From positions 1-33,977 of the forward strand of contig JASGLT010000020.1 in the NCBI GenBank assembly GCA_030156945.1: a DNA stretch of 33,977 bases, in the 5' to 3' direction. This document shows, piece after piece, positions 6,067-28,711 of this stretch (its first letter is position 1; the number at the start of each line of letters is the position of its first letter). The notes under the pieces were generated by a model. The model saw only the letters and a program-made list of their open reading frames with translations. It did no database searches and was not told the origin of the DNA. Source of the stretch: Thermococcaceae archaeon (GTDB taxonomy: Archaea; Methanobacteriota_B; Thermococci; Thermococcales; Thermococcaceae). The position numbers were made by a program, and so were the translations under genes.

Positions 6067-7266
6067 ATGAGGGGACTCAAACTGGGGGCTATGGCCCTCG
6101 CAATATTGCTGGTGGTGAGCGTGATACCCTTCGGCATTGCCGAGGCCAGCGATTCAAAGACCTCCCAAACTTTTGACAACAGCACCCGAGAAGAGGAAAT
6201 AGCCAGAGGACTCATAGAACAGCTCCAGAGGCTCAGCGAATTTGCGGAGAGAGCAATAGAACCCCTGAAGGACAAGCTACCGGCCAACTCAACCATAATC
6301 CAGAACTACAATCTTGCAGAAGAATTCAAAGAGAAGGCATTGAGCGAGTACGAGGAGGGTGACTACTACAACGCAATACTGGACAGTCTCACAGCTATGC
6401 ACCACTACAAGCTCGCCCTAAAAGGATTAAAGGAAGGAAAGGAAAGGATGGAGGAAGTTCGGAGCAGAATAAAGGCTGAAGTTGAGAGACTCCAGAGATA
6501 CTTTGGGCTTGTTGAAAAGACCATTAAAGCAGCCGAAAACCAGGGCATAGACGTCAGCACCCTCCAGGCGCTGTATGAAGAGACCAAGACCGCCTATGAG
6601 AAAGTCCTTGAAGACCTTAAAGAGGGGGATGTTGAAAAGGCACGGGAGGACCTTGAGATAGCCAAGGAGAAAAAAACAGTTCTCGATGAAGAGCTGAAAA
6701 GAATCCGCGAGCAGTTAGCCCATGCAAACGCAGACAAGATAGTGAGCCAGTTTCTCGAAAAGGGAGGCAGGGCAATAGAAATCGTCCAAAACCTCACTCA
6801 AATGGGAGAAGAAAGGGGCTACAACGTCACAGAACTCCAGGAGAGACTTGACGCGTTCGTAGCACTCTACACTCAGGTTGAGGAGCTCGCCAGTGAGGAA
6901 AAATGGGACGAGGCCCTCGACCTGATTGAAGAAAACAGGGAGGTCATAGAGGAATTTTATCAGGCAATTAAATTCATACAAAGAAAGGCCATGGAGAAGA
7001 AACTCGAGGAAGAGCTTCAGAACTTCAGGGAATTCGTCAAGAATTTCACCGAAAGAATGAAGGAAGACTCTAGAAAGCTTAGGGAGCTCAAGCTTCAGGG
7101 CGTTGACACCAGGGCCCCAGAACTCCAGCTTAGAGTGGCATCCCAGGAATTCAAGCTCGGCATAAACCTAATGAAGGCAAAGAAGCCAGCGGAAGCCAAG
7201 GCACACTTTGCAATAGCCCTTGAAGCCCTCCAGAAGGTGGAAGAGTTCATACAGGAGCACACTTAG
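6067..7266 (+). CDS. Secreted or lipid-proximal alpha-helical (coiled-coil) protein
   Basis: About 399 residues with an N-terminal signal-like segment (hydrophobic LGAMALAILLVVSVIPFGIAEA, likely cleaved after A-E-A) and an almost wholly helical, highly charged remainder. Glu/Lys/Leu-rich repeats of roughly 80 residues recur (for example GDYYNAILDSL, GDVEKAREDL, EKWDEALDLIEEN, KKPAEAKAHFAIALEAL), which looks like a helical-hairpin or TPR-like array. No C-terminal anchor is visible, so the product is probably exported and soluble or tethered by its N-terminus. ATG 6067 is preferred because GGTGAT (6057-6062) sits 4 nt upstream; a GTG at 6058 and an ATG at 6061 fall inside that site. The membrane-bound winged-helix gene follows 33 nt later, so the two may form a sensing pair. 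Confidence 0.7.
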   Translation: MRGLKLGAMALAILLVVSVIPFGIAEASDSKTSQTFDNSTREEEIARGLIEQLQRLSEFAERAIEPLKDKLPANSTIIQNYNLAEEFKEKALSEYEEGDYYNAILDSLTAMHHYKLALKGLKEGKERMEEVRSRIKAEVERLQRYFGLVEKTIKAAENQGIDVSTLQALYEETKTAYEKVLEDLKEGDVEKAREDLEIAKEKKTVLDEELKRIREQLAHANADKIVSQFLEKGGRAIEIVQNLTQMGEERGYNVTELQERLDAFVALYTQVEELASEEKWDEALDLIEENREVIEEFYQAIKFIQRKAMEKKLEEELQNFREFVKNFTERMKEDSRKLRELKLQGVDTRAPELQLRVASQEFKLGINLMKAKKPAEAKAHFAIALEALQKVEEFIQEHT

Positions 7267-7270
7267 CTTA

Positions 7271-7287
7271 GCCTTTTTTCTTATTTT
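7271..7287 (+). terminator. Oligo-T stretch after the coiled-coil gene
   Basis: GCC-T6-C-TTATTTT directly follows the stop codon. Oligo-T tracts on the coding strand end transcription in Thermococcales. Only 33 bases separate the two genes, so the tract may attenuate and not fully stop transcription into the winged-helix gene. Confidence 0.4.
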
Positions 7288-7299
7288 GGAGGTGAAGAC

Positions 7300-8163
7300 G
7301 TGGGGAAGAAAATCTCCTCCCTCTTCCTTTTCATCGTCCTTCTGACGTCCTTTCCCGCATCAGCCGAGTATTATTCATCTATCACTCTAACCGTTTACAC
7401 TGACGGCTACGTTGAAGTTCAAATTGATGTCGTCCCCGACACCTATTCTCCTCAGTTATCAATCCAGCTTATTGGAGAGCACATAGAGGACCTTTCAGTC
7501 GAAGATGAAAACGGAGACCCCCTCAACTTCAGGGTTGAGGGGAATTACCTCGTCCTCTACCCCGGAGATGCCACTTTGGTCAAAATCTCATACGTTACCC
7601 CCGACCTAACTTCAAAAGAGGGACCCCTGTGGACACTGAACGTCTCCACGAACCAACCCGTTACCATAGTCCTGCCAGAAAACTCAATTGTAGTCGATCT
7701 GAGCGACATACCACTCGAAATAACACAGAACTCAATAACTATACCTCCAGGCAATCAGAGCATCTCGTACATCATCGAGTACTCCGGATCAAGCGACTAC
7801 AGTGATCTGGAGGGCAGCGAAGAAAAAAGCTCCAACCAACTACCCATGATGCTTTTTGGACTTTCAGCTCTCATCCCAATTACCATCTATGGGATTTTAA
7901 GAAGGAAAAGGGCGAAAAAAGAAGAAAACCCCACCAGGGAGGAGCTCATGTTAAGACTTGAGCGTCTCGGTCTAAGCGATGAAGAGAAGAAAGCCATCCT
8001 CTACATATTTGACCGGGGAGGGAGGGTGAGTCAGGCTGAAGTTAGAGAAGCCCTTGGACTTCCAAAAACAACAGCATGGCGAATTTTCAAGCGCCTCGAA
8101 GAAAAAGGGGTTGTAAAAATCTTGAAAGGAAAGAAAGAGCACTGGGTGGAGCTCAACTTTTGA
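7300..8163 (+). CDS. Membrane-anchored winged helix-turn-helix protein with extracellular beta domain
   Basis: Putative one-component membrane transcription factor of 287 residues. Order: signal or anchor helix (about 3-20, SSLFLFIVLLTSFPASA); a beta-rich, acidic domain outside the membrane (about 22-175, many Val/Thr/Ile strands); a transmembrane helix near residues 181-202 (LPMMLFGLSALIPITIYGIL); a basic stop-transfer RRKRAKK; then a cytoplasmic winged HTH from about 228 to the end (SQAEVREALGLPKTTAWRIF as the recognition part, then the wing ILKGKKEHWVEL). The start is GTG 7300 after GGAGGTGAA. Archaea have several such extracellular-sensor/HTH proteins; the ligand and targets are unknown. 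The exported helical protein just upstream is a plausible partner. The 3' end stops 3 bases short of convergent metG. Confidence 0.72.
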   Translation: MGKKISSLFLFIVLLTSFPASAEYYSSITLTVYTDGYVEVQIDVVPDTYSPQLSIQLIGEHIEDLSVEDENGDPLNFRVEGNYLVLYPGDATLVKISYVTPDLTSKEGPLWTLNVSTNQPVTIVLPENSIVVDLSDIPLEITQNSITIPPGNQSISYIIEYSGSSDYSDLEGSEEKSSNQLPMMLFGLSALIPITIYGILRRKRAKKEENPTREELMLRLERLGLSDEEKKAILYIFDRGGRVSQAEVREALGLPKTTAWRIFKRLEEKGVVKILKGKKEHWVELNF

Positions 8164-8166
8164 ATT

Positions 8167-10392
8167 TCACCTTACCCTCGCTCCCAGCTTTACCTCTTTG
8201 TCTGGCATGAGCAGGGCGACGTTCTTGCCGTCGTCGGCCGCTAAAAGCATTCCCTGGCTCTCAACACCGCGGAGCTTCTTGGGCTCAAGGTTGGCTATGA
8301 TGACGACGTAGTGGTTGAGGAGCTCTTCGGGTTTGTAGTACTTTTTCAGGCCAGCGACGAGCTGCCTGACCTCATCGCCAAGGTCGACCTTGACTACGTA
8401 GAGCTTGTCAGCGTTGGGGTGGTCCTTGACCTCGATTATTTTCCCAACCCTCAGATCCAGCTTCGCGAACTCGTCAAAGCTAACGTACTCCATCTTTTTA
8501 CCCTCCTTGGCTTTTTCCTTCCTCTCCGCCTTATCCCCTTTTTCGGCCTTTTCTCCCCTCACATAATCACCGTAGATGGCCTTTAGGAGGGCGAGAGCTT
8601 CATCCTTCCTCCTCTCCCCAAAGCGCTCAAGCGTTACCTTAACGACGTCTTCCCGCTTGTAGTACTTGTTGAGGAGAATCTTTGCGCTGTCCGGGTTGCC
8701 CCTGCCGATGTAGTTCACGATGAAGTAGATTATCTCCTCGTCGGTGACCTTCTTGAACATCGGGAAGGCCTTTCTCACGCGGTGTCCCGCCGGAAGCTCG
8801 CTGAATTCCCACCTCTTGACCTCCTCAATGTTGAGGAGATGCCATATCTTCTCGCTTGCGTCAGGCAGGAACGGCTCAAGCAGGATTCCAAGGGCCTTAG
8901 CGATCTGGAGCGAGACGTTGACTGTCGTTGCCGTTCTCTCACGGTTTTCCTTGGCGGTTTTCCACGGCTTCTGGTAGTCGAAGTAGCGGTTTCCGAATAT
9001 TGCCAGCTCCATGACGCGCTTTAGCGCATCCTTGAAGCGGTAGTGGGCTATAAGTTCGCCGGTCTCCGCAAAGGCTTTCTCTATCTCCTCGAAGGCCTGC
9101 TTATCCAGCTCGTCCAGCTCTCCCCCCTCCGGAACTACGCCGTCAAAGTACCTGTTGACGAAGGTGAGAGCGCGGTGCACGAAGTTCCCGAGGTTGTTCA
9201 CCAGCTCCTCGTTGATTTTCTTCTTGAAGTCCTCGAAGGAGAAGTCGCTGTCCCTCGTTTCCGGCATTATGGCCGTGAGGTAGTACCTGAGGTAGTCAGC
9301 GGGCCAGACGTCAAGAAACTCGTGAACCCATATCGCCCAGTTCCTGCTCGTTGAGAACTTCTTGCCCTCTAGGTTGAGGTACTCGTTCGCGGGGATGTCG
9401 TAGGGCAAATTCCACTCGGCCTCGACTTCCTCATCCTTGTACCTGCCGTAGGCCATCAGGAAGGCAGGCCAGAATATCGCGTGAAAGGGAACGTTGTCCT
9501 TTCCGATGAAGTGGATGACCCTCGTTTGACCATCGAGGTTGAGCCAGAACTTCTTCCAGTCGTTCTCCCTTCCTTCCCTCTTCAGGTGCTCGATTGTGAT
9601 GCTGATGTAGCCGATGGGAGCCTCGAACCAGACGTAGAGAACCTTTCCCTTAACGTCCTCGTCGTCAAGGGGGACCGGGATACCCCAGTCGAGGTCGCGC
9701 GTTATAGCTCTCTCCTCAAGCCCCTCGTTTATCCAGCCGAGGACGGTGTTCCTGACGTTCGGCTTCCAGTGCTCCTGGCTTTCCACCCACTTCTTGAGCT
9801 TATCCTGGAAATTCTGCATGCGGATGTAGTAGTGTGCCGAGTTCTTGAAGGTTATTGGGTTACCGCAGATGTTACAGCGCGGGTTGATGAGGATTTCAGG
9901 CGTCAGCGGGTGCCCGCAGACCTCACACTGGTCTCCCCTCTGGTTTTCGGCGCCGCAGTAGGGGCAGGTTCCGATAACGTACCTGTCCGGGAGGAACATT
10001 TTGTCGTGCTCGCAGTAGGCCTGCTTGGTGACCTTCTTAACGAGGTGTCCGTTCTCAAGGGCCTTGAGGAAGAACTCCTGGCTTAGCCTGTAGTGGACGG
10101 GAAGCTCGGTCCTGCCAAAGTAGTCGAAGCTTATCTTTGCCCTCTCAAATGTCGTCTTTATGTGCTCATGAAACTCGTCAACTATCTCCCTTGGGCTTCT
10201 GCCCTCTTTGAGAGCGCGGAAGGTTATTGGGGTCCCGTGTTCGTCCGTTCCACAGATGTAGAGGACTTCCTCGCCCTTCAGGCGGAGGTAGCGCACGAAA
10301 ATGTCCGCCGGCAGATAAGCCCCCGCCAGATGACCGGCATGAATCGGCCCGTTAGCGTAAGGCAACGCAGAGGTGACCATGTACCTTACCAT
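8167..10392 (-). CDS. metG: Methionyl-tRNA synthetase with C-terminal tRNA-binding domain
   Basis: Charges initiator and elongator tRNA-Met. Features in order over 741 residues: HIGH-type motif HAGH in PIHAGHLAGAY (near residue 16); two CxxC-type zinc knuckles in the connective-peptide region (CEHDKMF...CPYC, CEVC...CNIC); KMSKS-type motif as KKFSTSRNW; a helical anticodon-binding domain; a lysine/glutamate-rich linker; then an EMAP-II/Trbp111-like OB fold (LDLRVGKIIEVKDHPNADKL) fused at the C-terminus. In some archaea that domain is a separate protein. ATG 10392 is chosen because AGGTGATT (10396-10403) is the ribosome binding site; the GTG at 10401 lies within it. TATA TTATAAGG is at 10424-10431 on the minus strand. 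Confidence 0.96.
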   Translation of the reverse strand: MVRYMVTSALPYANGPIHAGHLAGAYLPADIFVRYLRLKGEEVLYICGTDEHGTPITFRALKEGRSPREIVDEFHEHIKTTFERAKISFDYFGRTELPVHYRLSQEFFLKALENGHLVKKVTKQAYCEHDKMFLPDRYVIGTCPYCGAENQRGDQCEVCGHPLTPEILINPRCNICGNPITFKNSAHYYIRMQNFQDKLKKWVESQEHWKPNVRNTVLGWINEGLEERAITRDLDWGIPVPLDDEDVKGKVLYVWFEAPIGYISITIEHLKREGRENDWKKFWLNLDGQTRVIHFIGKDNVPFHAIFWPAFLMAYGRYKDEEVEAEWNLPYDIPANEYLNLEGKKFSTSRNWAIWVHEFLDVWPADYLRYYLTAIMPETRDSDFSFEDFKKKINEELVNNLGNFVHRALTFVNRYFDGVVPEGGELDELDKQAFEEIEKAFAETGELIAHYRFKDALKRVMELAIFGNRYFDYQKPWKTAKENRERTATTVNVSLQIAKALGILLEPFLPDASEKIWHLLNIEEVKRWEFSELPAGHRVRKAFPMFKKVTDEEIIYFIVNYIGRGNPDSAKILLNKYYKREDVVKVTLERFGERRKDEALALLKAIYGDYVRGEKAEKGDKAERKEKAKEGKKMEYVSFDEFAKLDLRVGKIIEVKDHPNADKLYVVKVDLGDEVRQLVAGLKKYYKPEELLNHYVVIIANLEPKKLRGVESQGMLLAADDGKNVALLMPDKEVKLGARVR

Positions 10393-10556
10393 TTTAATCA
10401 CCTTTCCGCGGTTGATTCCGCACCTTATAAGAACTTCGCGTTAAAAGAATTACGGTGGGTTATTAAGTGGGTCCAGAAATATGCATTTTTTGGCATATCC
10501 TATGGAGGGCTATCCTATTTAAATTGGCAGAAAGCGAAAAAGAGGAACAAAAAACT
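10393..10556 (-). promoter_or_regulatory. metG promoter and upstream spacer with small repeats
   Basis: TATA TTATAAGG (10424-10431, minus strand) lies 32-39 nt from the metG ATG. Further upstream are a hairpin-capable ATATGC/GCATAT pair around a T-rich loop (about 10480-10499), two direct copies of TATCCTAT (10496-10503 and 10511-10518, period 15), and a second TATA-like TTTAAATAGG on the minus strand (about 10513-10522). T-runs near 10530-10556 on the minus strand probably end the upstream aminotransferase transcript. Confidence 0.45.
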
Positions 10557-11771
10557 TCAGAACTTCTCTCGGTAGAGCTCTGCAAGCCTCTTTATTCCTT
10601 CCCTTATCTCCTCTTTGCTCGGCCGTGAGAAGTTGAGCCTTATGGCGTTCCTTCCGCTTTCATCAGTGTAGAATGGCTTACCCGGAACGACAACGACACC
10701 CTTCTTCTCCATGAGCTCCTCCGCGAAGGCCATTCCGTCCGCTCCCTCGGGCAGGAACAGCATCACGAACATTCCCGCGATTGGTTTTGTGAACTCCGCC
10801 TCCGGAAGGTTCTCCTCAAGGGCCTTGAGCATCGCATCCCTTTTCTCCCTGTATCCCGGAAGACCCTGCCTGAGGTGGTATTCCTCGAAGTAGCCCCTTC
10901 TCAGGTATTCCAGGGCGATGTACTGGGAGATCGTGGGCGCGCAGAAGTCTATTGGAGACTTCTCCATCAGGACTTTCTGCCTGATTTCCCCTTGGGCTAT
11001 TATCCATCCGACGCGGAAGCCCGTGCCGAGGACTTTGCTGAGGGTTCCAGCTACAACCACCCTGCCCTCCTTGTCCATGGCCTTGAGCGGAGTTGCTTCA
11101 CCCTCGTAGCGCATGAAGTTGTAGGCTGAATCCTCAACTATAAGAAGGTCGTACTCGCTCGCGAGCTCGAGGAGGCGCTTTCTTCTCTCTTCACTCATCG
11201 TAACGCCTATGGGGTTCTGACCGGTGGGGATGGTGTATATGAACTTTACCTTGACGCCCTTCGCCCTCAGTTCCCTGAGCTTCTCCTCAAGAATGTCTGT
11301 CCTCATCCCCTCACCGTCAACCGGAACTCCGTAGACCTTCGCCCCAAGCTGCTCGAAGGCCAAAAGGGTGTTTATGTAGCTCGGGTTCTCGGTTATCACG
11401 GCATCTCCAGGGTCTATAAGTACTCTTCCGAGAAGGTCGAGGGCGCCTGTTCCTCCGACGGTGATGATTACGTCGTCTGGGGAAACCCTGTAGCCCTCGT
11501 ATTTTTCAAGGAACTTCGAGATTTCTTCCCTCAGCTCGGGGATTCCGCTGGCTGGGGTGTACATAACGGAAGCTGGAACCTCCGCAAGTATCTCCTTCGC
11601 GAGCTCCCCAAGAACTTCCCTCGGAATGAGGTTCGGGTCGGGGTCGCCGGCGGAAAGGGATATTAGTTCTCTCCCCTGAGCTTTGAGCTCAGCGGCCTTC
11701 TTCATGACGTCCGCGAGGGCCGAGCCTTTAATCCAGTTGGCCCGCCCTGCGAGAAACTTATCGTATCTCAT
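10557..11771 (-). CDS. PLP-dependent class I/II aminotransferase, possibly alanine:glyoxylate or broad-specificity
   Basis: Cytoplasmic PLP aminotransferase of 404 residues in the 2-aminoadipate/kynurenine/aromatic aminotransferase subgroup. Visible: N-terminal substrate-gate region, GGTGALDLLGRVL (cofactor phosphate pocket), IPTGQNPIGVTMS with the family's Asn, EDSAYNFMRYEG, and the PLP lysine in AGTLSKVLGTGFRVGW; the C-terminal Arg in NAIRLNFSRPS binds the substrate carboxylate. ATG 11771 is preferred to GTG 11780, which is inside the GGTGGT ribosome binding site. It is divergent from glyoxylate reductase with a shared promoter. An alanine:glyoxylate aminotransferase has been described from T. 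litoralis, and the pairing makes glyoxylate/glycine metabolism an attractive guess, but aromatic or 2-aminoadipate specificity fits the sequence equally well. Confidence 0.88.
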   Translation of the reverse strand: MRYDKFLAGRANWIKGSALADVMKKAAELKAQGRELISLSAGDPDPNLIPREVLGELAKEILAEVPASVMYTPASGIPELREEISKFLEKYEGYRVSPDDVIITVGGTGALDLLGRVLIDPGDAVITENPSYINTLLAFEQLGAKVYGVPVDGEGMRTDILEEKLRELRAKGVKVKFIYTIPTGQNPIGVTMSEERRKRLLELASEYDLLIVEDSAYNFMRYEGEATPLKAMDKEGRVVVAGTLSKVLGTGFRVGWIIAQGEIRQKVLMEKSPIDFCAPTISQYIALEYLRRGYFEEYHLRQGLPGYREKRDAMLKALEENLPEAEFTKPIAGMFVMLFLPEGADGMAFAEELMEKKGVVVVPGKPFYTDESGRNAIRLNFSRPSKEEIREGIKRLAELYREKF

Positions 11772-14095: not shown

Positions 14096-14115
14096 AAAGT
14101 TTTAAAACTTTAAAC
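14096..14115 (+). promoter_or_regulatory. Promoter of the radical SAM/peptide operon with 16-bp palindrome
   Basis: AAAGTTTTAAAACTTT at 14096-14111 is a perfect palindrome that runs into CTTTAAACG, a TATA-like element ending about 42 nt before the GTG start. The MFS gene has a similar element (16167-16186). Palindrome plus TATA suggests repressor control, but AT-rich TATA regions of this shape also occur elsewhere in the window (for example in front of proS). Confidence 0.5.
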
Positions 14116-14156: not shown

Positions 14157-15641
14157 GTGGGGGTAATACTATTAAAGGACATAACAGCAATAAAATCCGA
14201 AATTGCCTGCAGTCCAAAGTTCTTTGTCATCCATGAAGACTCGGGATACATTGTAGAAGTTGAACCAGAAACCTACTCAGGGATTCAAAAGATAGCTGAG
14301 GGGAAAAAGACAGAACTTACCCCAGAGGAGAGGGTTAAGCTCAAAGAACTCCAAGACTACCTAAATCAGCTCCCCCCACTCCAGCTCGGATATAATGAGG
14401 ACTACGGCTTCCTCCTTGGAGGGAGTATCAACGTCTCTCAGGCGTGTAACTTCTCCTGCGTTTACTGTTACGCCAACAAAGGCACTTACACCCTTGAAAA
14501 GCCAAAACTCATGGATAAAGAGAGCATGAAGAAAGCCATTGACTTCCTCTTCGATAAGGCCCCATTCGGTGTTAGCATTGTCTTCTTTGGTGGAGAACCG
14601 CTCCTAAACTTCCCAGCAATCCAAGAGGGAGTCTTATACGCCGAAGAGAAGGCTAAAGAGACCAAAAAGCCCGTATTTTTCAGCGTTACAACCAACGGCT
14701 ACCTCCTCACTCCAAAAGTCGTGGACTTCCTTCTAAGCCACCCGTTTAACGTTATCGTGAGCATTGACGGGCCTAAGGAAATACACGACCATAACAGGCC
14801 CTTTGTGGACGGTTCACCCACTTATGATGTCGTAGCAAAGAACCTCAAATACTTCGTTGAAGAGGCCAGAAAGAGGGGGAAGCTGGGGAAGATTTCCGTT
14901 AGGGCTACACTCCTCCCAGAACAGCTTAACAGGGTTTACGACGTTTACCACCACTTAAAAACCGAGTTTGGAGTCCTGAACGTCGGCATTGAAATGGCCA
15001 CCCTCTCAAACAACGTGGTTACTAAAGAGCACATTGATACTTACCTCGACCAACTCAGAAAAATCGCCATAGAGGAGATAGAGACGTTCGGAGAGCTAAA
15101 AACCGTTGTTTACGTGAAATTCAAACAGATAATCCAAGACGTTTACAGGGGAAGGGTCAGTAGCTTCCATTGTGGTGCTGGGAAGGGTAGCGTGACCATT
15201 GACGTGAACGGGAACATTTACCCGTGTCATAGGTTCGTTAGCATGAAGGACTTTAAGCTTAGCCACATTGACAATTTTGAATGGGAGCACCTGAAACGCT
15301 TTGAGCTCCAAAAATACAACTTCTTGAACCACCCGCCCTGTAAGGACTGCTGGCTAAGATTCTACTGCCACGACTTCTGTTTCTACGAAAACATAACCTA
15401 CACAGGCAAAGGCTTTATCCCACCAGCCCTAAAGTGCTATTACGCTAAAGAGAGCTTCAAAATCGGCCTTTGGCTATACTCTCGCCTATGGGACGAATAC
15501 GGGGAAGAGTTCGAGAAAGCCTTAGAAAAGGCCGTCCCCATCCCCAGTTCAGACCCAGAACGCAACACAGCCCCCAATATGGAAAGGGAAGTTGGAGAGC
15601 CTGAAGAGGTTAAATCAGAGACTATTACGGCCACAAATTAA
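14157..15641 (+). CDS. Radical SAM/SPASM peptide-modifying maturase
   Basis: Predicted RiPP maturase of 494 residues that installs a radical-generated crosslink or other change on the peptides encoded just downstream. Residues 1-80 form a small N-terminal region that could bind leader peptides. The radical SAM cluster motif is C97-x3-C101-x2-C104 (CNFSCVYC), followed by FFGGEPLL and TTNGYLL. The C-terminal SPASM domain is complete: C339...G-x4-C357, C395-x2-C398-x5-C404-x3-C408 and C427, enough ligands for two auxiliary 4Fe-4S clusters. An acidic, Pro/Glu-rich tail follows. The start is GTG 14157, with AGAAGGGGG a few bases upstream. The first precursor begins 16 nt after the stop. Anaerobic sulfatase-maturating or sactisynthase-type chemistry are both possible; the peptide genes favour RiPP maturation. 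Confidence 0.88.
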   Translation: MGVILLKDITAIKSEIACSPKFFVIHEDSGYIVEVEPETYSGIQKIAEGKKTELTPEERVKLKELQDYLNQLPPLQLGYNEDYGFLLGGSINVSQACNFSCVYCYANKGTYTLEKPKLMDKESMKKAIDFLFDKAPFGVSIVFFGGEPLLNFPAIQEGVLYAEEKAKETKKPVFFSVTTNGYLLTPKVVDFLLSHPFNVIVSIDGPKEIHDHNRPFVDGSPTYDVVAKNLKYFVEEARKRGKLGKISVRATLLPEQLNRVYDVYHHLKTEFGVLNVGIEMATLSNNVVTKEHIDTYLDQLRKIAIEEIETFGELKTVVYVKFKQIIQDVYRGRVSSFHCGAGKGSVTIDVNGNIYPCHRFVSMKDFKLSHIDNFEWEHLKRFELQKYNFLNHPPCKDCWLRFYCHDFCFYENITYTGKGFIPPALKCYYAKESFKIGLWLYSRLWDEYGEEFEKALEKAVPIPSSDPERNTAPNMEREVGEPEEVKSETITATN

Positions 15642-15657
15642 AGGAGGGATGAACCCA

Positions 15658-15753
15658 ATGAGGGTGTTGGTTAGAAAGACTCCCAAACCAACGACCCTGA
15701 TGGCCTGCCCAAGGCCATCGGACGTTTGCTCCACCGTAGATGAGATAGCCTGA
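15658..15753 (+). CDS. RiPP precursor peptide, copy 1 (two-cysteine)
   Basis: A 31-residue frame 16 nt after the maturase, with GGAGGG at 15643-15648 and ATG 15658 (an in-frame ATG at 15649 abuts the ribosome binding site). It begins MRVLVRKTPKPTTLMAC and has the second cysteine after six residues (C17-x6-C24); the other copies have x7. It shares R2, L4, V5, the basic residue 6, P9, K10, L14 and M15 with the other copies. It is the most divergent copy, lacking the aromatic residue before the second Cys, and ends with a short acidic tail. Homology to three neighbours, the ribosome binding site and operon position together make it a real gene. Confidence 0.75.
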   Translation: MRVLVRKTPKPTTLMACPRPSDVCSTVDEIA

Positions 15754-15767
15754 AGGAGGGAGGCAAA

Positions 15768-15866
15768 ATGAGGGCCTTGGTTAGGATACAGCCGAAGCAT
15801 GCCGAACTCTTGGCATGCCTTGCCATAGCGGACTTTTGGTGTGAAGTAACCGTTGAATGGAGGTGA
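15768..15866 (+). CDS. RiPP precursor peptide, copy 2 (two-cysteine)
   Basis: A 32-residue peptide from ATG 15768, 14 nt after copy 1, with an extended purine-rich ribosome binding site GGAGGGAGG (15755-15763). It reads MRALVRIQPKHAELLAC, then the second cysteine after seven residues, preceded by DFW (C17-x7-C25), and a tail EVTVEWR. The N-terminal half (R-A-L-V-R-I-x-P-K) is nearly invariant among copies 2-4 and is the likely maturase recognition part; the Cys-containing half varies more, as expected of a core peptide. No signal peptide or membrane segment is visible. Confidence 0.8.
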   Translation: MRALVRIQPKHAELLACLAIADFWCEVTVEWR

Positions 15867-15969
15867 TAAGATAAGGGCGTTGGTTAAGGTAAGGCCCCAG
15901 CAGACCACCCTTATGGTCTGCAAGAGCATGGGAGATATATGGTGTGAATACGTCGTTGAGATACTTTGA
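15853..15969 (+). CDS. RiPP precursor peptide, copy 3 (no ATG at the expected start)
   Basis: The conserved body (RALVKVRPQQTTLMVC, then IWC after K-S-M-G-D) aligns with copy 2, with C-x7-C and tail EYVVEIL. A perfect GGAGGTGAT lies at 15859-15867, but the codon where copies 1-2 have ATG is ATA (15871-15873). Legal alternatives are TTG 15853, which overlaps the end of copy 2 and would read the ribosome binding site as Gly-Gly-Asp (38 residues, used here), or TTG 15880, which gives a version shortened by three residues. The conserved body shows selection for the protein sequence, so the gene is probably still translated. Confidence 0.65.
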   Translation: MNGGDKIRALVKVRPQQTTLMVCKSMGDIWCEYVVEIL

Positions 15970-16091
15970 ACAACCAAAAAGGAGGTGATACAAGGAGGGC
16001 ACTCGTTAGGATAAGACCTAAGACCGCCTACCTGATGGGATGCAAGAGAATGGCCGACTACTACTGTGAGACCGTCGTCGAGCTTATCTGA
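15966..16091 (+). CDS. RiPP precursor peptide, copy 4 (AGG at the expected start)
   Basis: The body RALVRIRPKTAYLMGC, then DYYC and tail ETVVELI matches copies 2-3 (C-x7-C). GGAGGTGAT is perfect at 15981-15989, yet the codon aligned with ATG is AGG (15993-15995), which cannot start translation. TTG 15966 in the same frame overlaps the stop of copy 3 as TTGA, a usual translational-coupling arrangement, and gives 41 residues that include a Gly-Gly-Asp encoded by the apparent ribosome binding site; that start is used here. ATG 16035 would start inside the body and lose the recognition part. The last copy before the operon ends. Confidence 0.62.
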   Translation: MNNQKGGDTRRALVRIRPKTAYLMGCKRMADYYCETVVELI

Positions 16092-16129
16092 AGACAGAAA
16101 CCCACCAGAACACCCCAAAGGCCTCCAAA

Positions 16130-16150
16130 CCTTTCCTTTTTCTGTTTCTT
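16130..16150 (+). terminator. T-rich tract after the precursor peptides
   Basis: The plus strand has several T-runs (CCTTTCCTTTTTCTGTTTCTT) about 40 nt after the last precursor stop and before the MFS promoter. This is a likely oligo-T terminator separating the peptide operon from the transporter transcript. Confidence 0.45.
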
Positions 16151-16166
16151 CCAGATGTAAAAAACG

Positions 16167-16186
16167 AAAAGTTTTTTACTTTAAAA
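16167..16186 (+). promoter_or_regulatory. Promoter of the MFS gene, similar to the maturase promoter
   Basis: AAAAGTTTTTTACTTTAAAA resembles AAAAGTTTTAAAACTTTAAA at 14095-14114 ahead of the maturase, differing mainly at the centre. It lies 41-60 nt before the ATG. The match supports common regulation of maturase and transporter, although AT-rich TATA regions limit its weight. Confidence 0.5.
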
Positions 16187-16226
16187 CCCCACAAAAACCG
16201 TCTAAAACCACAAAGGAGGGCCTAAA

Positions 16227-17441
16227 ATGGACTTGATAAAAAAATACAAGTTGTTCTTTGCCCTGATGAACACGGGCTTTGTTGGGAACCTCCTTGTTAT
16301 TTATTACCTCTCCAAAGGCCTCACATACGCCCAAATAGGCACGGCAATGGCAATAGCAACAATAGGAAACTTCCTCTTTGAAGTCCCCACCGGAGTCGTT
16401 GGCGACAAAATAAGCCGGAAAACCAGCGTCCTGATCGGAATAACCCTTCACGCCCTCGGAACCCTCGTCCTAATCTTCCTAAAGAACTTCCCCATGCTAA
16501 TCCTGTACTCCATAATAACACCCCTCGGAGTCGCATTCATCAGCGGAAGCCTCCAGGCATGGTTGTTTGACAATTTGAAGCACCTGAGAAGGGAAAAAGA
16601 ATACAGGGGACTGATGAAAAGCATAAAAACCATAACAATCCCTCTCACAGCCCTAACCGTGGCAATCGGCGGAATCCTCACTCAGCTCTACGGATTCACC
16701 CTCCCCCTGGCCCTAACACTCCTCCTCGAAGTGGGGACACTCATAGTGGGCTACAAAATCCCGGAGTATGAGTTCAAGAAGCCGGAACGCTCCTACATAA
16801 GCCACACCCTCCAGAGCTTCAAGGAGATAAAGAGGCCCGAACTCCTCTGGCTGATAATCCTCTCAATAACCGTTGTCATGGCCACAAACCAGTTTAGGCA
16901 GTTCTTTGAGCCTTATCTGGGTGATATACTCGCTGAGAGCCTTAAAACAACCCTCATGGGCACCCTCGGCCTCCTCGGAATAATAGAGGCCCTCGTCAAG
17001 ATAACTCCAAGGCTCATCGGAATCCATCTCAGGGACTCATGGAGCGTTAAGGCCTACCCCCTCGCCCCCCTCATCGTTCCAGTCCTAACGGCACTCTCAG
17101 TCCTCTACCAGAACCCGATTTGGATTATCGCCCTCGGAATCGTGGTTACGGTGATCCACACGGCCTTTGGATTTAACCTCGGAATTGAACTCCAGCACAG
17201 GATACCAACGGAGAAGAGGGCGACAATATTGTCAATTTACTCAATGGTGTCGGCGTTGGCCATGAGTGTCTTCTACTTCATCTACGGTTTCGTCGTGGAC
17301 TGGGTGGGTTTGGCCGAAGCGAGGCTTATCTTCGCCGTAATACTCCTCGGTGCTGGAGTGCTCTTGAAGGCTGGAGAGGCCTTAGGGCCCCTCAAGGAAG
17401 TCTTGAAGCTCAAGCACATGGAGACAGAACCTTTGAAATGA
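16227..17441 (+). CDS. MFS transporter linked to the RiPP locus
   Basis: A 404-residue membrane protein with about 12 hydrophobic helices and the MFS motif A between helices 2 and 3 (GVVGDKISRKTSVLIG). The helix-rich halves are joined by a charged central loop (YEFKKPERSYISHTLQSFKEIKRPE). It begins MDLIKKYKLFF with GGAGGG 10 nt upstream of ATG 16227. It follows the last precursor by 135 nt on the same strand and has a promoter like the maturase's, so it probably exports the modified peptide or gives self-protection. MFS exporters of drugs or sugars look the same by eye, so the substrate is inferred from context only. Confidence 0.82.
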   Translation: MDLIKKYKLFFALMNTGFVGNLLVIYYLSKGLTYAQIGTAMAIATIGNFLFEVPTGVVGDKISRKTSVLIGITLHALGTLVLIFLKNFPMLILYSIITPLGVAFISGSLQAWLFDNLKHLRREKEYRGLMKSIKTITIPLTALTVAIGGILTQLYGFTLPLALTLLLEVGTLIVGYKIPEYEFKKPERSYISHTLQSFKEIKRPELLWLIILSITVVMATNQFRQFFEPYLGDILAESLKTTLMGTLGLLGIIEALVKITPRLIGIHLRDSWSVKAYPLAPLIVPVLTALSVLYQNPIWIIALGIVVTVIHTAFGFNLGIELQHRIPTEKRATILSIYSMVSALAMSVFYFIYGFVVDWVGLAEARLIFAVILLGAGVLLKAGEALGPLKEVLKLKHMETEPLK

Positions 17442-24994: not shown

Positions 24995-27900
24995 ATGCAT
25001 GTGACAGTTCGAGTTGCGTGGCATGATAACAAGTGGAATGGAAAAGTATGTAACAAACCTGAAGAAAACATCTATTGCATTGACAACTACTCTCTTCTGT
25101 CTTCTAGAATCCAAAGACGTAGGGATTTGAACCTAGAGCAAGATATTGCAGGAAAGGAAATTTGTGAAGTTTGGAAAAACACTGGCTACGTACCTCCATG
25201 TTACTGGTGCATAAATTTAAATGGGAATGCTAATTGTAGTGTTAAAGACCCCCATCCATTTTCGGACACAAACCCTAAATTCGGAGAAAAAGTTCCGCCG
25301 ATAGATGCGGTGCTACACCCTAATTCTGTCTACACTTGGAATTTTAAACTGTCATTCGACGTAAAAAAAGGCAACTACCGATACCCTCCAGATCTAGAAG
25401 AGAGAGTAAAGGAATACATAAATAAAATCAAACCTGGAAGTTCCATCGTATTTTTCTATGCTAACTACGGAAACCCCGTTAATGGTGACGAAAGAAAGTA
25501 CTTACTAGTAGGAGCAGCACTAGTAAAGAACATTGAATATCCATCGGAATACGAAATGCCCCCCGAGCTCATTGAAGAGAAAAACAAATATTGGAGAACT
25601 AGATACTTCCCAAAAATTGCCTGGCAGTTCAGGATTGATATTGACCCAGAAACAATAGTCTTATTGCCATATCATGAATACTTGGATCTCGAAATCCAGG
25701 AAGAAGAAAAAGAAAACCTCCTAAAAGAGATCACAGTGAGCATTAAAGATCCCACGTTAATTCCTCATTTTAAATATGTATCAATGCACGTTCCTTCGGA
25801 TAAGACCCTCTATCTACTTTACGAGATTAAACGTAAACTTGACATTGTGGAGCAGCATGGTATCATTGATTTTGAGAAAGTACAGGTATTAAAGAAAAGA
25901 TTAGTCCACCTTCTTAAAATAGCTTGGGACTCTCGTGGAAAGTATCCAGGTTTCCGGAACCTTATGGAAGTGCTCATCAGTGATGAATTAAAGAATGCCT
26001 CTGAAACAGTCGACGGGTTCTATTCTTTAATACTTCAGAAATTTGGTAGTGTTGAAGAGTTCCTAGCGAACCCTGATAACATAAAGGTGTTGGAGTCAGA
26101 AAATCTGAGCCCGGGCCTTAAGAAAATAATCCCGTATTTACGAGATGAATATTCGACTATCGAGTTTCTATCCAGATTTGACTTATCAAAACCCCAATTT
26201 CAGAAGATTCTAGGAAGAGTAAATCGGTATCGCGAGAATCCTTACACGATTCTTGAGGAGTATCTGTACGAACTTCAGGACAACAACTGGCGCATTGAAG
26301 ATAATGATTACGGAATTTCCCTTTACCAGATAGACATACCCATGTTCCCAGACCCGGAATTTGTCAACTGGGAACCACCTATGATAATTCGTGCTACCTC
26401 GATAGAGCGTGTTTCAGCATTAATAACGACAATACTAAAGGAAAGCGCTACGATCGAGGGCAATTCAGCTCTCCTAAGAGAGATGGTCATGGAAAGGATC
26501 AAGAGTTATCCCCTTTACTACATAGACAAGGAGTTGAACATAAATGAGAATCTACTTGATGAGTATGAGAACAGACCTGAATTTAGAAGCAAGTTCATAT
26601 TCTACACCATAAATGGCAAAAAGCTGTATCAATTAAAATCTTTAAGAAACATTGAGGCACACATTGAGAAATTCGTCAACACCTTGATCTCAAAGACGTA
26701 TTCAGTTCCCGATGCTATCGTAGAAGAGTTAGTCGAACGGGATATTCAAAAGTTTGACGATCGGCTAAATTATTATTCTCAAATTACATTCTCTAAGGAG
26801 AGACAGAAACTCTACAACTCAGTGCTTAAAAATGGATTTTCAGTAATTCTCGGTAGTGCTGGAAGCGGGAAAACTGCTGCTGTTGTTAACTTGGTAAAGT
26901 ATTTCAATGACGAGCGAAAACCAATACTGATAGTAACTCCTACCGGAAAAGCTAGCCTAGTAATCAGAGACCGGCTTAAAAAAGAGGGGATAAACCCTGA
27001 AAGTTCTCGCATTTTGGTTTCAACAATACACAGGTACCTCTATCAGTTTCCACATAATTTTTCAAGTTACATCCCCAAGATTCTTGATGGAAACTATCAT
27101 CTTTTCCAAGAGTTCATTAGAGGGATTCAAAATACGCACTTCAAGTCAATAACTCCTAAAGTCGTAATAATTGATGAAGCCTCAATGGTCGATGAGGTAC
27201 TTCTTGCATTATTGTTTGCAACCATAAACCCGCACGCAGTGGAACATGTTATTCTTGTGGGGGATGACAAACAATTGCCTCCAATTGGAGTTGGTAGACC
27301 CCTTGTGGATATCGTGAACTACTTAAAAGCAAAAAATTTGGAAGGAAATTATGTTGAACTTCAAACTAACTTGAGATTCTCAACTGCAAATCCTGGTGCC
27401 TCTAGAATTGAAAAGTTGGCTGCATTGTTCAGAGAAGACAAAATGATATCATTTGAGGATCTAGAAGATGTCTTCCAGACCGAGGATGAAACATTAGAAA
27501 TCGTCTACTTTGAGTCCTACGAGGACTTAATAAGAAAGCTAAAAGAAATATTATCAAAGTTAACATCTGTTGAATCTACAGCAGAAACAAGCATTAGTGA
27601 ATTGTTTGTTGAGCTATTCGAACCAGATGGAACTTTTGACTATTCCTACTTAGATCAACTTCAGATATTAGCTCCTCGTAGGGTGGGTAGATTTGGAACA
27701 TTAGGCATCAACTACCAGATTGCCGGAGATATCCTGAGTACTGGGGCATTTAAACCTGGAACAAAAATAATCTGTGAGGAAAACCAATATTGGAACATTG
27801 GTGATCTGAGGGTTCTAGCGTTAGCTAATGGATCAATCGGGTATCTCCCAAAAAAAGACCACAGCCAAATAAAAAATGGTTTGCCAAATCCCAAGTTTTA

Positions 27901-28711
27901 TGACATTGACGAGCTCTACAAGCTCGTCACGACCATTACAAACAAAATACAATCCCCTAAAAAGAGAAAATGGTACTGGGACAGTTACAAACAATATCTG
28001 ACGTCTCTTAAGAAAATGTTAGTAATTCCTGGTGCAGAGAAGAACGTAGAAGGATTCTCACCCGCGTACGCCATCACAGTTCACAAAGCCCAGGGAAGCG
28101 ATTTTGATAATGTGATCTTGGTACTCTCAGAACGTTCTAATTACATTACAAAGGAGCTTATCTACACAGGAATCACTAGAGCAAAGAAGAAGCTCTACCT
28201 ATTTATCCACGAGAGCCTCAAGGATAAGTTTTACGAGTTCTTAATCTCTGCTCACGAGAATTCTGCGATAGACAACATAACAACCCTCCTATTTGAGTAC
28301 AGGCCATCAGCTTCAAAGCCCTACAAGGTGACACTTAAAGATGGCAAAACTTTGTATGTCAGGTCAAAAATTGAAATGATAATAGCAAAAACGTTGGACA
28401 ACCTTGGCGTAGAATTTGAGTATGAACCTAAAGATTTTAGCAGACAGTATTTGCTGCCCGACTTTAAGATAATCTACAATGAACAGGAATATTACTGGGA
28501 GCACCTAGGAATGATAGATAACATGGAATATCGGAGTAGATGGTTTAGAAAATTCAAGAAATACAAGGAGATGGGAGTAGCAGATCACTTAATAACGACA
28601 GAGGAGTCTGAGCATGATATTGAAAACAACGTGAGAAAGATTATTGAGGACATAAAAGGAGGTAGACTCAAAGGGCGTCAAAGTTACTCATACCATCATT
28701 ACTTCCTTTGA
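24995..28711 (+). CDS. Large SF1 (RecD-like) helicase with novel N-terminal region and C-terminal PD-(D/E)xK-like nuclease
   Basis: A 1238-residue single-gene island product, probably a DNA helicase-nuclease. Residues 1-230 are an unassigned domain (opening HVTVRVAWHDNKWNGKVC) with C19, C28, C57, C69-x2-C72 and C81, a possible zinc or Fe-S site. A mostly helical region of unknown role follows (about 240-600). The SF1 motor has motif I GSAGSGKT (620-627), motif II IIDEAS (725-730), motif III GDDKQLPP (756-763), TNLRF as motif IV, ITVHKAQGSDF (1027-1037) as motif V, and YTGITRAKK (1057-1065) as motif VI. The C-terminal domain has E1127 (RSKIEM), D1156 (LLPDF) and E1169-H1170 (YYWEHLG), as in restriction-endonuclease-like folds. 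Base composition is much more AT-rich than neighbouring genes. A defence or plasmid/virus-derived role is inferred. Confidence 0.82.
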   Translation: MHVTVRVAWHDNKWNGKVCNKPEENIYCIDNYSLLSSRIQRRRDLNLEQDIAGKEICEVWKNTGYVPPCYWCINLNGNANCSVKDPHPFSDTNPKFGEKVPPIDAVLHPNSVYTWNFKLSFDVKKGNYRYPPDLEERVKEYINKIKPGSSIVFFYANYGNPVNGDERKYLLVGAALVKNIEYPSEYEMPPELIEEKNKYWRTRYFPKIAWQFRIDIDPETIVLLPYHEYLDLEIQEEEKENLLKEITVSIKDPTLIPHFKYVSMHVPSDKTLYLLYEIKRKLDIVEQHGIIDFEKVQVLKKRLVHLLKIAWDSRGKYPGFRNLMEVLISDELKNASETVDGFYSLILQKFGSVEEFLANPDNIKVLESENLSPGLKKIIPYLRDEYSTIEFLSRFDLSKPQFQKILGRVNRYRENPYTILEEYLYELQDNNWRIEDNDYGISLYQIDIPMFPDPEFVNWEPPMIIRATSIERVSALITTILKESATIEGNSALLREMVMERIKSYPLYYIDKELNINENLLDEYENRPEFRSKFIFYTINGKKLYQLKSLRNIEAHIEKFVNTLISKTYSVPDAIVEELVERDIQKFDDRLNYYSQITFSKERQKLYNSVLKNGFSVILGSAGSGKTAAVVNLVKYFNDERKPILIVTPTGKASLVIRDRLKKEGINPESSRILVSTIHRYLYQFPHNFSSYIPKILDGNYHLFQEFIRGIQNTHFKSITPKVVIIDEASMVDEVLLALLFATINPHAVEHVILVGDDKQLPPIGVGRPLVDIVNYLKAKNLEGNYVELQTNLRFSTANPGASRIEKLAALFREDKMISFEDLEDVFQTEDETLEIVYFESYEDLIRKLKEILSKLTSVESTAETSISELFVELFEPDGTFDYSYLDQLQILAPRRVGRFGTLGINYQIAGDILSTGAFKPGTKIICEENQYWNIGDLRVLALANGSIGYLPKKDHSQIKNGLPNPKFYDIDELYKLVTTITNKIQSPKKRKWYWDSYKQYLTSLKKMLVIPGAEKNVEGFSPAYAITVHKAQGSDFDNVILVLSERSNYITKELIYTGITRAKKKLYLFIHESLKDKFYEFLISAHENSAIDNITTLLFEYRPSASKPYKVTLKDGKTLYVRSKIEMIIAKTLDNLGVEFEYEPKDFSRQYLLPDFKIIYNEQEYYWEHLGMIDNMEYRSRWFRKFKKYKEMGVADHLITTEESEHDIENNVRKIIEDIKGGRLKGRQSYSYHHYFL

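Follow-up and report, generated by a model that had tools for sequence, protein, structure and literature searches.

Among the closest described systems, PapB joins Cys to the β-carbon of Asp or the γ-carbon of Glu in CX3D/E motifs; it accepts spacings of n = 0–6, and transposition of Asp and Cys gave no product (PMC9413430). QhpD forms three Cys-to-Asp/Glu thioethers (PMC7876137). For Archaea, ranthipeptide clusters were predicted in a 2025 survey, which lists lanthipeptides as the sole archaeal products validated earlier (PMC12144867). Here we describe a gene cassette of a Thermococcaceae archaeon (assembly GCA_030156945.1) that appears to direct the synthesis of a ribosomally synthesized and post-translationally modified peptide (RiPP). 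The window, that is, the whole stretch of DNA analysed, is contig JASGLT010000020.1 (33,977 nucleotides), one complete contig in a 2.08-Mb genome of 53 contigs. On its plus strand lie, in order, a radical S-adenosylmethionine (SAM)/SPASM maturase gene (14157–15641), four tandem peptide frames, P1 to P4 (15658–16091), and a major facilitator superfamily (MFS) gene (16227–17441); P1 begins 16 nt 3′ of the maturase stop. We suggest that this small mobile gene set probably makes, cross-links and exports peptides of 31–32 residues by sulfur-to-acidic-residue chemistry of the kind found in a family of bacterial peptides. In molecular terms, we favour, with reasonable but not high confidence, a compact Thermococcaceae RiPP cassette comprising a maturase that forms Cys-to-Asp/Glu thioethers and an MFS exporter.

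The cassette recurs as a unit. Among 94 Thermococcaceae genomes searched, the host genome included, six have a full-length maturase and a seventh has a truncated copy; the other five full-length enzymes are 53–83% identical to that of the window. At all six loci the maturase is followed by one to four short peptides (one or two in the other five) and then by an MFS gene, which adjoins the peptides in every case. A profile of ten peptides found eleven clear matches (E < 1e-11), exactly in the six cassette genomes; one extra match (E = 0.04), within a long frame, looks like chance. A short precursor beside a modifying enzyme, the arrangement by which RiPP systems are generally recognized, is thus conserved in six cassettes. 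An initial annotation, made from the letters of the window alone, had read the locus as a RiPP system and advised a search for short frames beside maturase homologues. That search found them in six Thermococcaceae genomes, with maturase, peptides and MFS gene recurring together and the peptides nowhere else, which supports the RiPP reading.

The maturase is a protein of 494 aa with a GTG start. It carries the motif CNFSCVYC and, as the initial annotation had it, a complete set of SPASM cysteines (C339, C357, C395, C398, C404, C408 and C427), all seven invariant across 11 homologues. The AlphaFold2 model (mean predicted local distance difference test score 78.6), built on an alignment of only 11 rows and poor over the last 35 residues and parts near the cluster-binding loops, begins with strands at residues 9–16, 19–26 and 32–35, then helices at 37–47 and 56–70. 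This order is as expected for a RiPP recognition element (RRE), and residues ~9–70 are predicted to form an RRE-like domain, a call made from the order of strands and helices and from alignment to CteB, not via an RRE profile. The protein has CxxxCxxC, a seven-Cys SPASM domain and an N-terminal RRE-like domain, together the features of a radical SAM/SPASM peptide maturase. Of the solved structures, the nearest is that of CteB, a maturase that forms thioethers; this holds for sequence (profile E 1.2e-75) as well as for fold (template modelling score 0.82–0.85 on target). The gene is under purifying selection, with non-synonymous differences (pN) of 0.09–0.13 vs. synonymous differences (pS) of 0.65–0.80. 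The peptide genes tend in the same direction, more weakly (pN 0.24–0.39 vs. pS 0.55–0.98).

Among curated families, PapB (NF047865) is the top match of the maturase, at 246.3 bits against a cut-off of 340, followed by the Nif11 maturase (238 bits), QhpD (227 bits, cut-off 453), an orphan ScfB-like group and the SCIFF maturase (TIGR03974; 203 bits, cut-off 425). All of these scores lie under the families' own cut-offs, and the two Cys per core likewise set the cassette apart from SCIFF. Similarity to the sactipeptide maturase family RumMC is weak (115 bits, cut-off 720). The superfamily is common to anaerobic sulfatase maturases, one of which, 4k36, is also among the fold matches, so that the enzyme might act on a sulfatase or another protein, with the short frames unrelated to it. 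We regard this as very improbable. The score for TIGR03942 (104 bits) is far under the cut-off of 349, the enzyme matches the PapB, QhpD, SCIFF and Nif11 maturases with much better scores, and the two weak sulfatase-family (PF00884) matches in the genome lack C/S-x-P-x-R; the peptides, moreover, track the maturase exactly. Identity as a sulfatase maturase is largely refuted.

The four frames follow one another closely. P1 (MRVLVRKTPKPTTLMACPRPSDVCSTVDEIA; ATG, 31 aa, 15658–15753, peptide profile E 3.7e-14) is preceded by the ribosome-binding site GGAGGG at 15643–15648, with an alternative in-frame ATG at 15649. P2 (MRALVRIQPKHAELLACLAIADFWCEVTVEWR; ATG, 32 aa, 15768–15866, E 4.4e-17) is preceded by GGAGGGAGG at 15755–15763. 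P3, read as (ATA)RALVKVRPQQTTLMVCKSMGDIWCEYVVEIL (32 aa, 15871–15969, E 7.7e-18), and P4, read as (AGG)RALVRIRPKTAYLMGCKRMADYYCETVVELI (32 aa, 15993–16091, E 1.4e-15), have the same ribosome-binding site, GGAGGTGAT, at 15859–15867, where it overlaps the P2 stop codon, and at 15981–15989, respectively. That the frames align with one another, an early observation on this locus, holds up well: the pairwise similarity of P2, P3, P4 and the peptide of a related locus (L031) was matched in 0 of 20,000 shuffles, and the joint motif R[AV]LV[RK]-x10-12-C-x4-D-x1-2-C occurs across the six frames of the window at exactly four sites, those of P1–P4. Against NCBIfam the peptides gave no match, and against Pfam a single one at chance level (E 0.066).

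A minus-strand frame of 167 codons (15615–16118) is open across the whole peptide region, so the four frames might be an accident within a gene on that strand. This idea we consider barely credible. Such a gene is contradicted by L033, L034 and L035, where stops interrupt all three minus frames opposite the peptides. Mismatches between the copies are most frequent at codon position 3 of the plus frame, a ribosome site stands before every plus frame, and six genomes share the peptides read in the plus frame.

In the alignment of ten peptides, in which Met1 was entered for ATA, AGG and TTG codons, invariance is confined to three columns: Cys17, Asp22 and the second Cys. At least nine of the ten have Met1, Arg2 and a Glu directly behind the second Cys. 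Cys-x4-Asp, followed by the second Cys, is found in 10/10. The initial annotation took Cys-x7-Cys as the core, and this we reject because the two cysteines are separated by x6 in P1 (x7 in P2–P4) while Cys-x4-Asp does not vary. When expected counts are obtained by shuffling the non-Cys core residues, an acid at Cys+5 is found in 16 of 21 cases vs. 4.7 expected, a value as high in 0 of 5000 shuffles; at Cys+4 the window-type peptides have 3 of 21, vs. 4.8 expected. The CX3D/E units of PapA are absent, the spacing after the first Cys being x4 in all ten. An acid also lies 4–7 places beyond the second Cys in every peptide.

Two sister groups of maturases in Thermococcaceae, ~40% and ~33% identical to that of the window (range 32–41%), adjoin different short peptides rich in Cys and acids. 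As sister peptides we took, by eye, those short frames directly behind each maturase that have a ribosome site, so the following counts are descriptive. In the ~40% clade (L037–L045), a second and commoner PapB-like system, the peptides lie directly 3′ of the maturase (e.g., L037, oriented 8403–8567), have a leader such as VFKKLNAGGNPVEP, and are rich in Cys-x3-Asp and Cys-x2-Asp: of 68 cases, 34 have an acid at Cys+4 and 28 have one at Cys+3, where 16.5 and 17.4, respectively, are expected. In the ~33% clade (L046–L049), a peptide of 48–50 residues, MEFEVVNPGDKTKIWIGPCGVLDQGGCPFPEDWECWWPEDICYRPEPI, has four Cys with Asp/Glu mostly at +4 (e.g., L047, oriented 7463–7615), the count for two peptides being seven of eight Cys (2.0 expected); it is almost unchanged between genomes. 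Like the cassette, then, these systems pair related maturases with Cys/acid-rich peptides just 3′ of them. They differ in a main spacing of x3 (also x2), in more Cys per peptide, in their leaders (FKKLN..., MEFEVVNPGDK...) and in carrying other genes 3′ where the cassette has its MFS gene. Against PapB, two of the sister enzymes reach 280 and 239 bits. In a maturase tree with ten outgroup rows, whose bootstrap had not quite settled, the x4 clade is fully supported, with the two x3 clades as its sister group (join 92/91). Several L037–L045 maturases have an ABC ATPase gene on their 5′ side.

The initial annotation matched such peptides to no named class. A resemblance to Cys-to-Asp/Glu thioethers of the PapB and QhpD type is now apparent and, because PapB is the top curated match and the sister maturases adjoin Cys-x3-Asp/Glu peptides, the maturase most likely makes ranthipeptide-type Cys-to-Asp/Glu thioethers, as judged from sequence. 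A different chemistry is the main competing idea: thioethers to α-carbons as in sactipeptides, a link from Cys to another residue, or an unknown crosslink, with Asp22 serving only recognition or folding. The maturase reaches no curated cut-off, and the Nif11 and SCIFF maturases, which have other targets, score near PapB. Set against this, sactipeptide families (RumMC, for example) lie far lower in score, and three maturase clades whose peptides are unrelated each keep an acid at a fixed distance behind Cys. We think a different chemistry unlikely.

For a thioether maturase, the following sequence of events is proposed. The conserved N-terminal half of the peptide (M-R-A/V-L-x-K/R-x-x-P) would be bound by the RRE-like domain. 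The C-terminal core is Cys-x4-Asp-x(1-2)-Cys-Glu with another acid near the end. Using the SAM-cleaving cluster and the SPASM clusters, the enzyme would join Cys sulfur to a side-chain methylene carbon of a later acid, as PapB and QhpD do, with predicted links from Cys17 to Asp22 and from the second Cys to a later Glu or Asp. The result would be one or two small thioether rings. The leader, if it is removed, would be cut by a protease encoded elsewhere, and the product would be exported by the MFS protein. The Cys17–Asp22 link is the simplest reading because an invariant acid stands at a fixed place after a Cys and the enzyme is kin to PapB and QhpD. For the second Cys the acceptor is less clear; it may be the Glu one place on (+1) or one of the acids between +4 and +7.

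Several observations weigh against these proposals. No curated family fits the maturase, which falls short even of the PapB cut-off. The second Cys lacks a constant partner: acids stand at +1 in nine of ten peptides, at +5 in six of ten and otherwise at +4, +6 or +7. The cassette has no protease gene. Most genomes with relatives of the MFS protein lack the maturase, so that the tie of this protein to the peptides is one of conserved adjacency only; the MFS family is broad, and other uses may be possible. Lastly, the start position of P3 is ATA and that of P4 is AGG, both non-canonical and each one base off ATG, a feature absent from the initial annotation.

The last point bears on whether the window's cassette is itself partly or largely decayed, with P3, P4 or all the peptides silent remnants of a system being lost. 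At the homologous position the other loci have TTG (L031, L032) or ATG (the second peptide of L033, L034, L035). P3 has none of ATG, GTG and TTG there, and an in-frame TTG lies 5′ of it at 15853; P4 also lacks a start codon at this position, with an in-frame TTG at 15966 that overlaps the P3 stop. Translation of P3 and P4 might begin at AUA or at a UUG further 5′, or the two frames might be silent; the two codons may also stem from sequencing error. Relatives do show damage. Of seven loci, three have a disrupted maturase: in L031 (genome G040) an in-frame TGA stands where the near-twin G039 has Gly; in L033 (G055) a one-base change near the start leaves the upstream ATG out of frame with the remainder; and in L036 (G026, oriented ~7159–8043) a deletion has cost the maturase its 3′ half and the locus nearly all of its peptide gene, so that mid-maturase runs directly into the final bases of the peptide. 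These are draft assemblies that may hold errors. In the window, by contrast, the maturase gene is undamaged and its pN low, P1 and P2 each begin with ATG behind a ribosome site, and P3 and P4 keep every core residue and their GGAGGTGAT sites; in-frame TTG codons offer alternative starts. On balance decay of the window's own cassette seems doubtful, somewhat less so than a different chemistry.

The MFS protein (404 aa, Pfam MFS_1 1.5e-25, with a promoter-like stretch of its own upstream), correctly called at the outset, is presumed from its sequence and place to be an exporter, a self-protection pump, or both. Its relatives occur in 48 of the 94 genomes. At the three disrupted loci the MFS gene is intact, and because of this the loss pattern fits a dispensable, competition-type trait. 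The downstream flank of the G055 cassette is common to the lone MFS genes of G043 and G022 and, more patchily, of G063; loss of production with retention of the pump would suit a role in self-protection. For the product itself, a part in competition or signalling between related strains can be suggested only tentatively. A two-gene pair lies 3′ of the MFS gene in one cassette-bearing genome (L033, oriented 9838–11444) and in one lone-MFS genome (L071, oriented 9080–10686); by its antitoxin sequence, the pair may be an AbiE-type toxin–antitoxin system.

Upstream of the maturase, in its presumed promoter with a region like a transcription factor B recognition element (BRE) and TATA box, lies a perfect 16-nt palindrome with no strand, AAAGTTTTAAAACTTT (14096–14111). 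It is the sole exact copy in the genome, with one further site at one mismatch. The same 16 nt stand 5′ of the L033 maturase, the L034 version is one base longer, and at L031, L032 and L035 it is not evident; as a candidate common operator it is present, or nearly so, at three loci. The palindrome may be an operator, which is a guess, or merely a feature of the TATA region. No window flanking gene tested was found at other cassette loci in a search for a shared integration site, and scans of the window for tRNAs and Rfam families matched none. The second half of a 1238-residue protein encoded at 24995–28711 contains a UvrD/AAA-type helicase domain; for the first 600 residues no Pfam match was obtained at 1e-8. 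A phylum-wide maturase search gave one distant homologue only beyond Thermococcaceae. In a wider genome-contig collection, the single maturase protein had no matches and a five-row maturase alignment found only distant bacterial SPASM proteins (20–27% identity); the viral contigs searched had no matches.

It is tempting, if speculative, to see here a new branch of radical SAM RiPPs from archaeal hyperthermophiles, whose minimal 32-residue precursors would each carry two thioether rings of the Cys-x4-Asp/Glu type. It would belong to a set of at least three related Thermococcaceae systems with different ring sizes and export genes, would act in inter-strain conflict and would have been lost time and again from loci that retain the transporter. 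A new class it is not, since archaeal ranthipeptide clusters were already predicted; our literature search, with most subscription papers outside its scope, found no description of such systems in Thermococcales. Together, a heat-stable maturase and a 32-residue substrate with two Cys would make a simple enzyme–substrate pair in which to study how ring size (x3 vs. x4) is set by SPASM enzymes, and the enzyme might find use in cyclising peptides at high temperature. The pattern of cassette loss would bear on competition among hyperthermophiles.

Compared with known systems, the maturase of the cassette has its closest solved structure in CteB, the SCIFF maturase (5wgg, 5why), and shares with it the RRE-like N-terminal domain, at 24% identity and less than half of the SCIFF cut-off; SCIFF peptides have six Cys in ~45 residues, and none such was found in the cassette. 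QhpD, the third-best curated match, acts on QhpC of quinohemoprotein amine dehydrogenase and joins Cys to Asp/Glu at longer and varied spacing. QhpC, however, is an enzyme subunit, whereas the cassette substrates are tiny peptides, and no other qhp genes were seen here. The PapB/PapA system, which makes the ranthipeptide freyrasin, likewise has a SPASM enzyme beside a short precursor and a fixed distance from Cys to acid. The cassette differs from it in a spacing of x4 rather than x3, in two Cys rather than six units, in precursors of 31–32 residues with an RALV-type leader, in its archaeal host and in its MFS partner.

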